Part shown: piece by piece, positions 1,385 to 55,736 of the stretch
Layout: each line of letters begins with the position of its first letter
Numbering within the stretch: the stretch's first letter is position 1
NCBI GenBank assembly: GCA_017397305.1
Contig: JAFQJB010000011.1
Location: forward strand, 1 to 64,000
DNA length: 64,000 nucleotides
Direction: 5' to 3'
Source: Clostridia bacterium
GTDB lineage: Bacteria > Bacillota > Clostridia > Christensenellales > Borkfalkiaceae
Translations under genes and position numbers: made by a program
The notes under the pieces: generated by a model
What the model saw: the letters and a program-made list of their open reading frames with translations, nothing else
Database searches by the model: none
What the model was told of the DNA's origin: nothing

Positions 1385-1492
1385 AGTATGATTTTTAAGT
1401 CAAAGATACAGAAAAAAGGAGGAAAACAAAAAGCCCCGATAGGCGCGTACGTCTGTACGTAACTATTGGGACTTTGTTTGTGTTTTTCTTTT

Positions 1493-3087: not shown

Positions 3088-3259
3088 GTCACTAGAACAA
3101 TAAAGCATTGATTAGTAATTTTGCGATTTGACGAGGAAAACGCAAAAAGGACGAGCGTTCTTGTGAGGGCGCATACCCTTGCGGTCTGTAACCGAACAAA
3201 ACGCAAAGTAATTTGCAGTGTTTTTCCGTCAAAAATCAATGGTGGATTGTGTAAGTGAC
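3088..3259 (+). repeat. Family II palindromic element 3' of rseP
   Basis: A 172-bp imperfect hairpin. The left arm (3088-3113) begins GTCACT, then ACAAT and CATTGATT; the right arm (3234-3259) is AATCAATG, ATTGT, AGTGAC. The inner part has TTTGACGAGGAAAA against TTTTTCCGTCAAAA, then GCGTTCTTG, a CATACC/GGTCTG apical stem, and GTAACCGA, CAAAACGC. The core matches the element at 42455-42622 closely, but the outer arms differ by paired changes. It ends 5 nt from the rseP stop codon. The rest of the 2960-3264 gap holds only the gdhA promoter. Confidence 0.8.
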
Positions 3260-7770: not shown

Positions 7771-7929
7771 GGCTTTGAAGCGAAAAACGTTGATATAGCG
7801 CGAAGTGGCAAACACAAACAAGACTTTTGTTATGCCCGACGGCAAGAGTATACATCTTGTCTAGGGTGTAACGAGAGTATTGTGCAGTGTTTCACGCTTT
7901 GCGCATCAACCTTTTTGAGCGGAAAAGTC
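7771..7929 (+). repeat. Family II palindromic element 3' of pyrH
   Basis: A 159-bp imperfect hairpin ending on the base before the pyrH stop codon. Arms pair in order: GGCTTT with AAAGTC, AAAAA with TTTTT, GTTGAT with ATCAAC, GCGC with GCGC, AAG with CTT, AAACAC with GTGTTT. The apical part differs from the 42455 and 3088 copies, so this is a second subtype. Its left half recurs at 42385-42430 (GGAGCGCAAGGTGGCAAACG). Confidence 0.75.
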
Positions 7930-22116: not shown

Positions 22117-22241
22117 TTTTTATTGGTTAGTTGCAAGCAGGTCAAGGCGCGCGAGCATTGCGAAGTGGCGCGTACTTTTTGTACGTAACACGAGCAACGC
22201 GGAACGCAACGCAGAGATGCGCCGTAAATAACCAATAAAAA
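22117..22241 (+). repeat. Family I repeat, variant c, next to the rplL terminator
   Basis: 125 bp with perfect 13-bp terminal inverted repeats TTTTTATTGGTTA and TAACCAATAAAAA. The core has GTTGCAAGCAGGTCAAGGCG, a GTAC-5-GTAC apical hairpin with extended imperfect pairing, and GCAGAGATGCG. The copy at 54017-54137 differs at only about five core positions, yet its 11-bp arms are TTAAAGGGTTA and TAACCCTTTAA, again perfectly complementary. The right arm runs into the T-tract of the rplL terminator. With the deleted copy at 22065 it accounts for most of the 21926-22288 gap. Confidence 0.85.
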
Positions 22242-23252: not shown

Positions 23253-23274
23253 TTTGATACCTCCTTGTTTTAAT

Positions 23275-23400
23275 GAAAAAGCCCTCGAAAACCAAAACGG
23301 AAAACGAGGGCATGAAAAATCACGCTTAAAAATTTCCGCCTCGGTTGGTCTGCCACTTGTGGCAAGTTAACACCTACTGTCTTAGGCTATTTAATTTACT
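23275..23400 (-). promoter_or_regulatory. Ribosomal protein L10 leader with attenuator
   Basis: On the minus strand the leader contains GCCTAAGACAGTAGGTG, the conserved internal-loop motif of L10 leaders, then a hairpin CTTGCCACAAGTGGCAG, then an intrinsic terminator: GCCCTCG, 17 nt, CGAGGGC, TTTTT (23276-23311) just before the rplJ ribosome-binding site. Confidence 0.85.
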
Positions 23401-23405
23401 TTGTG

Positions 23406-38197: not shown

Positions 38198-38235
38198 GAC
38201 AAAACAAAATAATGGCAAATATATACTATTGCCCT

Positions 38236-38345
38236 AATTCTTTTCCCATCCGGACTATAACCGTCGGTTTTGGAATTTAACCAAATCAGCCTTTCGGCTC
38301 GCAGACTTTACTGCCGATGGGGAATTTCACCCCGCCCCAAAGAAT
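38236..38345 (-). promoter_or_regulatory. FMN riboswitch (RFN element)
   Basis: On the minus strand, closing stem AATTCTTT/AAAGAATT, then GGGGCGGGGTGAAATTCCCC, ATCGGCAGTAAA, CTGCGAGCC, and the hallmark AGTCCGGATGGGAAAAGA. All conserved blocks of the RFN element are in order. Transcription of ribU and probably of the following genes should fall when FMN is abundant. Confidence 0.96.
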
Positions 38346-38396
38346 TTTTTTAAGTTTAATTATATTTTAATGATATTTTAGAGTTTTGTAAAGCGT

Positions 38397-42261: not shown

Positions 42262-42323
42262 GTTCTTTCTCCTTTTGTTTTATGATATAAAAGTGTTTTT
42301 GCAGTATTTTCTCTTTTTTGAAA

Positions 42324-42373
42324 GGCTTTGAAGCAATGCGTGTTGATTAGTTTACGCTATGACGAGGAAAACA
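42324..42373 (+). repeat. Family II left-end fragment (first)
   Basis: GGCTTTGAAGCAATGCGTG, TTGATTAG and GACGAGGAAAACA match the left half of the full element at 42455; no right half is present. Confidence 0.65.
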
Positions 42374-42384
42374 CTTTGCCGAGA

Positions 42385-42430
42385 GGCTTTGGAGCAAAAA
42401 ATGGTTGGAGCGCAAGGTGGCAAACGCAAG
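42385..42430 (+). repeat. Family II left-end fragment (second, other subtype)
   Basis: GGCTTTGGAGCAAAAAATGG, then GAGCGCAAGGTGGCAAACGC, match the left half of the pyrH-linked element at 7771 rather than the neighbouring copy. Confidence 0.65.
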
Positions 42431-42454
42431 CAAACACTCAACCCATTTACCAAA

Positions 42455-42622
42455 GGCTTTGGAGCAATGCGTGGTGATTAACGAAGTGGTTTGGCGAGGA
42501 AAATACAAGTAGGGCGCGCGTTCTTGCAAGGGAGCATACTTGAAAAGTATGTAACCGAGCAAAACGCGATGCAATACGAAGTATTTTTCCGTCAAAAATC
42601 ACCTAAGCATTGCGGAAAAGCC
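42455..42622 (+). repeat. Family II palindromic element 3' of obgE
   Basis: A 168-bp imperfect hairpin ending 2 nt before the obgE stop codon. Left arm blocks GGCTTT, GCAATGC, GGTGATT (42455-42479) pair with AATCACC, GCATTGC, AAAGCC (42597-42622). Inner pairs are GAAAATAC with GTATTTTTC and CGCGTT...TTGC with GCAA...AACGCG; the apex is CATACTT-gaa-AAGTATG. With the two fragments upstream it fills the 42262-42624 gap. Confidence 0.85.
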
Positions 42623-53807: not shown

Positions 53808-53935
53808 TTTTAAGGGGTTAAAAGCAAGCAGGGGGAGGCTCGAGAGCCAAAACAGACGAAATAGAACGTCCGTTCATTGAGATTGTTTTGGCGAATCAGT
53901 TAACGATGCCCTGCGATGCTTATGAGCCTTTAAAG
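53808..53935 (+). repeat. Family I repeat, variant b (second copy)
   Basis: Partner of the copy at 1493. The core (53839 onward, GCTCGAGAGCCAAAACAGAC, ACGTCCGTTCAT, TGTTTTGGCGAATCAGTTAA) is nearly identical. Helices are AAGC (53822-53825) with GCTT (53918-53921) and GCAGGG (53828-53833) with CCCTGC (53909-53914), with the same 2/3-nt internal loop as in the first copy but different bases. Confidence 0.8.
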
Positions 53936-54016: not shown

Positions 54017-54137
54017 TTAAAGGGTTAGTTGCAAGCAGGTCAAGGCGCGTGAGCATTGCGAAGTGGCGCGTACTTATTGTACGTAACACAAGCAACGCGG
54101 AACGCAACGCAGAGATGCGACGCAAATAACCCTTTAA
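54017..54137 (+). repeat. Family I repeat, variant c (second copy)
   Basis: 121 bp, arms TTAAAGGGTTA and TAACCCTTTAA perfectly complementary, core as at 22117. The 53663-54449 gap (787 bp) therefore holds a promoter, three family I elements, one fragment and two terminators; 54172-54385 shows nothing recognisable. Confidence 0.85.
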
Positions 54138-54449: not shown

Positions 54450-55736
54450 TTAAGCGTTGTAACCCCATGTTACTTGACAATTGCCACGATTGCTTAAATA
54501 ATTCCACGCATCATCCCAACTTTCAGGTTTGCTTTCTGCTTCGCAATAAATTTTTAAAGAATAACAAGCTTCAAACACCCTATATCCAACACTGGTTACA
54601 CTTTTTGGTATCACTATGCTTGTAAGCGCATCACAACTTTTAAACGCATAATCACCTATACTCTTTACACTTTCAGGTATTGTTATATCTGCAAGCAAAA
54701 AGCATCCATCAAAAGTATTTTCTTCTATCGCCATTAAACTATTAGACAGGGTTACACTTTTCAATTCATAACAGCTCTCAAAAGCAAACGAACCCAACCT
54801 TGTTACTGTATTTGGAATCACTACATTTTTTAGTAATGAACACCCTTTAAAAGCAGAGGCACCAATACTTATTACACCACTAGGTATTTCTACACTAACT
54901 AGTGAATAACAGGCACTAAAAACACCCGCACCAATAAACTTGCAGTTTTCATCTACTTTCACTTCAGATATGTTTTGCGAAACAACTCCTATTAAATATA
55001 AATATTTGTTGGACGAATTGCCAAGATACTTTAATCCGTTTTTCTCATTGCATTGCAACGTTTTATCAAACGCATAATCACCTATACTAGTTACTCCGCT
55101 TGGGATTTCTATATTCGTTAACGAAAGACATTCGCTAAACGCATATTTACCTATGCTAGTTACTCCGCTAGGAATTTCAATGCTTTCTATCCAACGACAG
55201 CCCGAAAACGCATTGTTACCAATGGTTGTCAATAGACTGTTCTCTGCAAACGTTACGCTAGATAACTCCATTCCCATATAAAAGGCATATTCACCTATGC
55301 TAGTAACACTTGCTGGTATTTCAATACTTGTTAACTTACTGCAATTATCAAACACATGCGCCTCAATACTAGTTAAGCCGTTTGGTAACATTACACTCGT
55401 CATGTTATAACAACCCTTAAAAGCATATTCGCCTATGTTTGTAACACTGCTTGGAATTACAACGGTTTTTAACGAAGACTCTTCCTTAAACGCATTTGCG
55501 CTGATACTTGTCACGGGAAGGTCGTTGTAGGTTTCGGGAATAACCACATCACCAGACGTAACCGAACCAATATCGACAACACTATAAGATTCTTGGTCTG
55601 CATTTAATTCATATTCAAGCACCTCAACGTTGCTTTGTCCGCCACCAATCGAACCATCGCCACCACAAGCAGTCAACATTACTGCGCCCATAGACAGCAA
55701 AAAGGTTGCTATCAACAATGCTAAAACTTTTTTCAT
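54450..55736 (-). CDS. BspA-like leucine-rich-repeat lipoprotein
   Basis: 428 residues. Lipoprotein signal with LTACGG (Cys near residue 24), a Gly-rich spacer, then about 14 LRR_5 repeats of 23 residues such as SLKTVVIPSSVTNIGEYAF and TSIEIPASVTSIGEYAF. One repeat position is interrupted by an insert (residues about 225-255, CNEKNGLKYLGNSSNKYLYL). The end is a short cap with Cys and Trp (PESWDDAWNYL). Surface-anchored; ligand unknown. The promoter has an XRE-type operator and the gene is divergent from a small regulator. Confidence 0.92.
   Translation of the reverse strand: MKKVLALLIATFLLSMGAVMLTACGGDGSIGGGQSNVEVLEYELNADQESYSVVDIGSVTSGDVVIPETYNDLPVTSISANAFKEESSLKTVVIPSSVTNIGEYAFKGCYNMTSVMLPNGLTSIEAHVFDNCSKLTSIEIPASVTSIGEYAFYMGMELSSVTFAENSLLTTIGNNAFSGCRWIESIEIPSGVTSIGKYAFSECLSLTNIEIPSGVTSIGDYAFDKTLQCNEKNGLKYLGNSSNKYLYLIGVVSQNISEVKVDENCKFIGAGVFSACYSLVSVEIPSGVISIGASAFKGCSLLKNVVIPNTVTRLGSFAFESCYELKSVTLSNSLMAIEENTFDGCFLLADITIPESVKSIGDYAFKSCDALTSIVIPKSVTSVGYRVFEACYSLKIYCEAESKPESWDDAWNYLSNRGNCQVTWGYNA

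Follow-up and report, generated by a model that had tools for sequence, protein, structure and literature searches.

Mobile hairpin elements behind stop codons in a genus of Clostridia carry a tip shared with the enterobacterial ERIC repeat

Hairpin elements in the 64-kb window

The stretch of Clostridia DNA analysed here in its whole length of 64,000 nucleotides (the window) carries the genes obgE, rseP and pyrH on its minus strand, as judged from Pfam matches (Obg; M50 protease, for rseP; amino-acid kinase, for pyrH). A repeat element lies behind the stop codon of each gene (Table 1). An earlier note on this DNA had described the three as full copies of one family (Family II) whose pairing is kept while the arms diverge. 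Re-reading of the window sequence bore out the coordinates, the stop spacing and the outer arms of all three. The obgE and rseP copies indeed belong to Family II; the pyrH copy, however, shares only the outer arms, having a different core and no tip, and forms a small family of its own with three long matches in its own genome. The obgE element, which reads GGCTTTTCCGCAATGC...GCATTGCTCCAAAGCC on the gene-sense (minus) strand, has 17 matches within its own 1.39-Mb genome. Compared with shuffled sequences, the folding z-scores were -7.1, -4.3 and -3.0 for the obgE, rseP and pyrH copies, respectively.

Table 1. Repeat elements and hairpins located in the window
Feature	Positions	Strand	Description
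Family II full element (obgE copy)	42455..42622	-	Gene-sense strand GGCTTTTCCGC...GCTCCAAAGCC; starts 2 nt past obgE stop
Hairpin tip of obgE copy	42529..42556	-	Conserved GGTTACATAC-TTTTCAA-GTATGCTCCCT
Partial Family II pieces	42321..42454	-	Tandem, adjoining obgE copy
Family II full element (rseP copy)	3088..3259	-	5 nt past rseP stop; outer arms GTCACT/AGTGAC; relatives found in the genus
Hairpin tip of rseP copy	3168..3192	-	GTTACAGAC-...-GTATGCGCC; genus variant, G for T; one mismatch to the tip rule
pyrH copy	7771..7929	-	Starts at the stop (0 nt); outer arms GACTTTTCCGC...GCTTCAAAGCC, as Family II
Family I element (GGTTA...TAACC)	22125..22233	-	Directly behind T-tail of rplL terminator; fits the tip rule, tip at 22167-22189
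Second Family I element	54023..54131	-	Behind terminator T-tail, downstream of LRR gene; tip at 54065-54087
Terminator-like hairpin	1433..1472	-	Stem, then TTTTT; apex is the same tip, GTTACGTAC-AGAC-GTACGCGCC

Among these features, a GC stem followed by a T-run was seen by eye only in the terminator-like hairpin. A further repeat, with GGTTA..TAACC-like arms and a different core (CAAAACAACCTCGATGAACGGACGTTC...), occurs at 1491-1617 and 53808-53934, and one of its copies begins right behind the gdhA stop. The window also contains 69-nt tandem repeats that code for leucine-rich repeats (1-852 and 54642-55487; BspA-type LRR, with a Pfam match for 54450-55736). Gathering-score matches in Rfam were an FMN riboswitch (38234-38348) and an L10 ribosomal leader (23266-23404). 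None of the elements had a match at the gathering score, nor a credible one at permissive E-values, and a known RNA family was excluded on this ground.

Structure and mobility of Family II

Family II elements are about 170 nt long. The obgE and rseP queries together detected them in 13 of the 44 genus genomes; in 24 genomes belonging to other families within the order, the obgE query had no match. Most of the genomes compared are metagenome bins. In one of them (G020; L019, L029, L036), copies of the element stand head to tail in tandem, about 180 nt apart.

The structure was tested on 53 aligned copies, using RNAalifold and counts over the full rod including the outer arms. RNAalifold alone gave the inner rod, with double changes at 14 of 24 pairs. 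Over the full rod, 91% of the cells were paired, compared with 82.7% in shuffles and 38-46% when the structure was slid, a control that is flattered because the structure was partly drawn from the same sequences. For the same reason, more weight belongs to the double changes: they occurred at 35 of 56 pairs, and there were 276 double-change cells against 88 in shuffles. None of 500 shuffles of the 53 copies reached any of the rod measures. Family II is one rod-like hairpin backed by strong covariation, and the claim that pairing persists while the arms diverge holds across all 53 copies.

The elements have conserved ends, GGCT...AGCC (GGCTCTGTCACAAA...TTTGTGACATAGCC), which form inverted terminal repeats, and they contain no ORF; at their length, these are the features of a MITE. 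Exact 8-bp duplications flanked 11 of 41 copies, compared with 0.2% when the flanks of different copies were paired. The obgE-yhbY junction was inspected by eye in 30 species: two (G000 and G018) carry the full element 1-2 nt past the stop, two (G007 and G010) carry short, apparently end-only remnants, and 26 have none. Hence, Family II elements are non-autonomous insertion elements of the MITE type, whose mobility is evident from the duplications and the empty sites. These two observations contradict, for Family II, the reading of the elements as terminators or 3'-end regulators of transcription that are not mobile and owe their spread to ordinary duplication. That reading is suggested by the terminator-like stem with TTTTT under one tip of the window and by the Family I copies at gene ends. 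Family II, in contrast, has no consistent terminator (7/53 by a terminator heuristic in sense vs 3/53 in antisense) and a separate one frequently precedes or follows it, and we regard the terminator reading as extremely unlikely.

ISL3 and IS1595 insertion sequences are expected to make 8-bp duplications and to have ends starting with GG. Family II resembles MITEs of these types in both traits, and its duplications and GGCT ends prompted a search for an ISL3 origin. Neither the ISL3 family (PF01610) nor the IS1595 family (PF12762), the two Pfam families searched, was present in any of the 44 draft genomes of the genus, unlike what such MITEs would call for, and both origins were rejected. The earlier note had set simple MITE insertion with a known transposase against its own reading; insertion of the MITE kind was found, but not the ISL3 or IS1595 transposase. 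A phage or viral origin was also rejected, as the viral contigs scanned did not contain the tip; querying phages with a short sequence joined by hand from the ends of the element, which is a weak test, also gave no match.

The conserved tip, ERIC and other known repeats

The tip of the hairpin follows the rule GTYACNTAC-loop-GTAN'GCKCC, with a 3x3 internal loop. N and N' were complementary in 186 of 188 cases, with A:T, G:C, T:A and C:G all seen, and the loop varied from 4 to 8 nt. This free variation argues against folded recombination sites (integron attC-like or Xer/dif-like) served by a tyrosine recombinase. Such sites could account for a conserved structure with variable sequence and for positions following stop codons, and the reverse strand of the tip, GGGCGCATAC-GTATGTAACC, presumably bears a loose resemblance to dif. 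However, 8-bp duplications would be unexpected, and the elements flank housekeeping genes in otherwise ordinary operons; we consider this the least probable of all the readings.

A strict version of the tip, scanned over genome contigs, was found in at least 114 stretches, about 11 of which are estimated to be chance matches. Among the matches listed are many gut Clostridia, Helicobacter canis (an isolate genome), H. avicola, Myxococcales, Verrucomicrobia, Lentisphaeria, Bacteroidetes, Acidobacteria, Desulfobacterales, Actinomycetota, Gammaproteobacteria, Bacteriovoracia and Desantisbacteria. A looser version, counted in 25 of these genomes, gave up to 28 copies per genome and the reversed pattern gave none; three of the 25 had no match. 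When 299 genomes spread evenly over the phylum of the window were scanned, nine tips were found in the window's own genome and two single, non-complementary matches in the 298 others, with none for the reversed-pattern control. In 274 genomes from the class of the gammaproteobacterial MAG, an ERIC-type tip was present in five, and all eight matches were complementary; one of the eight sits in what appears, by eye, to be 23S rRNA (L305). At position 1412 of this locus, in one gammaproteobacterial genome, a 23S rRNA hairpin (GGAGC..GUGAC) matches the tip as read on its reverse strand and shares its 3x3 loop geometry; a literature lead on this resemblance yielded nothing further.

In most phyla, the flanks of the tip folded far below shuffled flanks (z -3 to -8). 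Folding of the flanks was weak in some GC-rich groups (Myxococcales, -0.6; Lentisphaeria, 0.3), whose membership therefore rests on the tip, the copy number and visibly complementary outer arms. The tip-bearing hairpins of other groups have unrelated arms, and as arms from distant phyla cannot be aligned, common descent is not proven beyond the tip and the general architecture.

Two of these groups may be described separately. The 1.9-Mb isolate genome of H. canis has 28 exact tips in both orientations and not beside stops (L133, L140, L184, L186, L222, L225, L227, L228), several of them inside long open frames. Clostridium sp. MAGs (L150, L153, L194, L195, L230 and relatives) carry a separate tip-bearing family with ends GGTTGAAAAATAATT..TTCTTTTCCAACC, in which several copies themselves contribute the stop codon for the gene upstream, with similar RBS-like sequences coming after them. 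One copy (L195) has a flanking repeat of about 16 nt, AAAGGAAGGACAGTAA.

The ERIC repeat (enterobacterial repetitive intergenic consensus, also named IRU or RU-1) has been known since 1990-91 and is used worldwide for typing. A 44-nt ERIC sequence matched 5,373 of 5,426 E. coli genomes, and its apex, GTCACTTAC-TTAT-GTAAGCTCC, fits the tip rule exactly. Like ERIC, Family II is a small imperfect hairpin with the tip, mobile but non-autonomous, whose sense copies lie behind stops. Of the properties of ERIC proper, Family II has the central inverted repeat, namely the tip. In contrast, ERIC is 127 bp long, its short ends start with TATAC and its termini carry TA (PMC2229807), whereas Family II, with its greater length, its GGCT...AGCC ends and its 8-bp duplications, has none of these, and the arms of the two are not alignable. 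Correia/NEMIS, RUP, BOX and YPAL/RU-2 are likewise small, palindromic, non-autonomous and intergenic, and some are processed as RNA (PMC10969869); RUP, BOX and SPRITE, however, are enriched between convergent genes (PMC3049150), unlike Family II, which lies mostly in tandem gaps and in sense. REPs and REPINs, which go with RAYT transposases, are also extragenic palindromes, but REPs measure 20-40 bp and have GTAG/CGTC tags (PMC3733652), in place of the roughly 170 bp and the target duplications of Family II. The open-access literature searched gave no description of the tip beyond enterobacteria. That ERIC and hairpin repeats from eight or more other bacterial groups obey one tip rule suggests a single, unrecognised superfamily.

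Placement at gene 3' ends and its possible causes

Orientation was assessed for 69 Family II copies with genes on both sides, the genes being longest-ORF calls made by script. In tandem gaps, 48 copies were in sense and three in antisense (p = 2e-11; the placement p-values are only indicative, since the gene calls are script-made and copies of one species are not fully independent). In convergent gaps, the element adjoined, in 12 of 12 cases, the stop of whichever gene shares its orientation. A sense gene preceded 58 copies, and 39 of these began 8 nt or less from its stop, where 10.0 would be expected for a uniform position in the gap. Gaps of more than 120 nt showed the excess too (16 of 34 copies, 1.3 expected). 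Among the other 19 of the 58, 14 had a terminator T-tail in the preceding 25 nt, and copies behind terminators were also in sense. Outside Clostridia no orientation bias was seen (5 vs 5 of 21), and the Helicobacter copies were not stop-adjacent.

These data bear on what the earlier note had said of placement. A start 0-5 nt after the stop describes the three window copies; across the genus, the range is 0-8 nt and applies to two thirds of the copies. Random distances from stops, against which its proposal was to be checked, did not occur genus-wide, and its suggestion of targeting to stop-codon or terminator sites fits both classes of site. The stop class had been recognised there, but not the T-tail class as an observation, nor the rule of sense orientation, the duplicated target sites or the conservation of the tip.

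An ordinary MITE with no special placement, found near stops merely because gaps are short, would agree with the genuine target duplications and the empty sites. It is contradicted by the counts in the longer gaps and by the 48:3 orientation, and is very unlikely.

The same pattern might arise if MITEs inserted at random and selection then acted on the transcript. Survivors would be those that spare promoters, ribosome sites and terminators, in the orientation that yields a harmless or useful RNA, for example one capping or processing the mRNA 3' end, of the kind reported for Yersinia ERIC. In compact operons, the sole free spot is that between the stop and the ribosome site; the empty obgE-yhbY spacers, for instance, are often only 8-20 nt. 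In Yersinia, the effect of ERIC on the upstream mRNA is reported to depend on its orientation (De Gregorio 2005, as cited in PMC2229807); a possible role of the present elements in mRNA 3' ends, as the earlier note had proposed, or in mRNA stability is suggested by that Yersinia work only. At the purC site, where the element lacks the outer arms, its core is identical at 109 of 111 positions between two species (L058 vs L046), compared with 87% for the coding flank and 68% for the downstream spacer; selection could explain this sameness, and so could gene conversion.

The placement of ERIC in E. coli fits this reading and that of directed insertion alike. Sense copies lie behind stops, about 1 nt past ybhI (in the ybhI-ybhJ gap, L302), about 6 nt past cusC and about 19 nt past a gene of EcN, whereas antisense copies lie mid-gap, about 150-180 nt from the nearest stop (yafP, preT-yeiS, aceF-lpdA). 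These six distinct sites, which are few and not randomly drawn, agree with the genus pattern.

Against selection on the transcript, copies lying past a terminator, which should be little transcribed, share the sense orientation, and copies with intact duplications, which are presumably young, mostly follow the rule already. Moreover, when promoter and terminator signals of Family II were compared between the strands of the 53 copies, there was no clear difference, so that such an asymmetry was rejected as the cause of the orientation bias and does not explain why antisense copies should be harmful.

Because the copies with intact duplications and those behind terminators already obey the orientation rule, we lean towards directed insertion. 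We consider it somewhat probable that these are MITE-type elements of an ERIC structural superfamily, moved by a transposase acting in trans and directed in a fixed orientation to gene 3' ends. The predicted transposase would thus place the GUUACNUAC strand in the mRNA. Paired arms may be kept since an intact hairpin would be required for the element to move or to be tolerated, and the tip and internal loops may be kept as they would be recognised by a putative partner. Counting against directed, oriented insertion are the absence of a transposase from the two Pfam families searched, the missing orientation bias outside Clostridia and one copy (L090) that has an intact duplication yet lies in antisense between genes. 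Purifying selection on random insertions could yield much of the placement pattern, given that an insertion does least harm in a compact genome when it falls behind a stop or a terminator. Selection on the transcript is accordingly a serious possibility, nearly as likely as directed insertion, and both may act together.

A bolder, tentative proposal is that the tip, as RNA or as cruciform DNA, could be a portable recognition module in small mobile elements that are unrelated in all else, from Clostridia to Helicobacter, Myxococcales and Enterobacteria, with ERIC as one branch. It might bind a putative, widely conserved bacterial factor that either steers new copies towards transcript 3' ends or renders their insertion there tolerable.

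The open-access literature gave no answer as to what moves ERIC or why it is conserved. With its tip rule present in at least eight other groups, ERIC would no longer be an enterobacterial oddity but part of a wide superfamily, and the tip offers a concrete motif for fishing out a partner. The strict placement and orientation at gene 3' ends in Clostridia pose the question of transcription-coupled insertion versus selection on mRNA ends.
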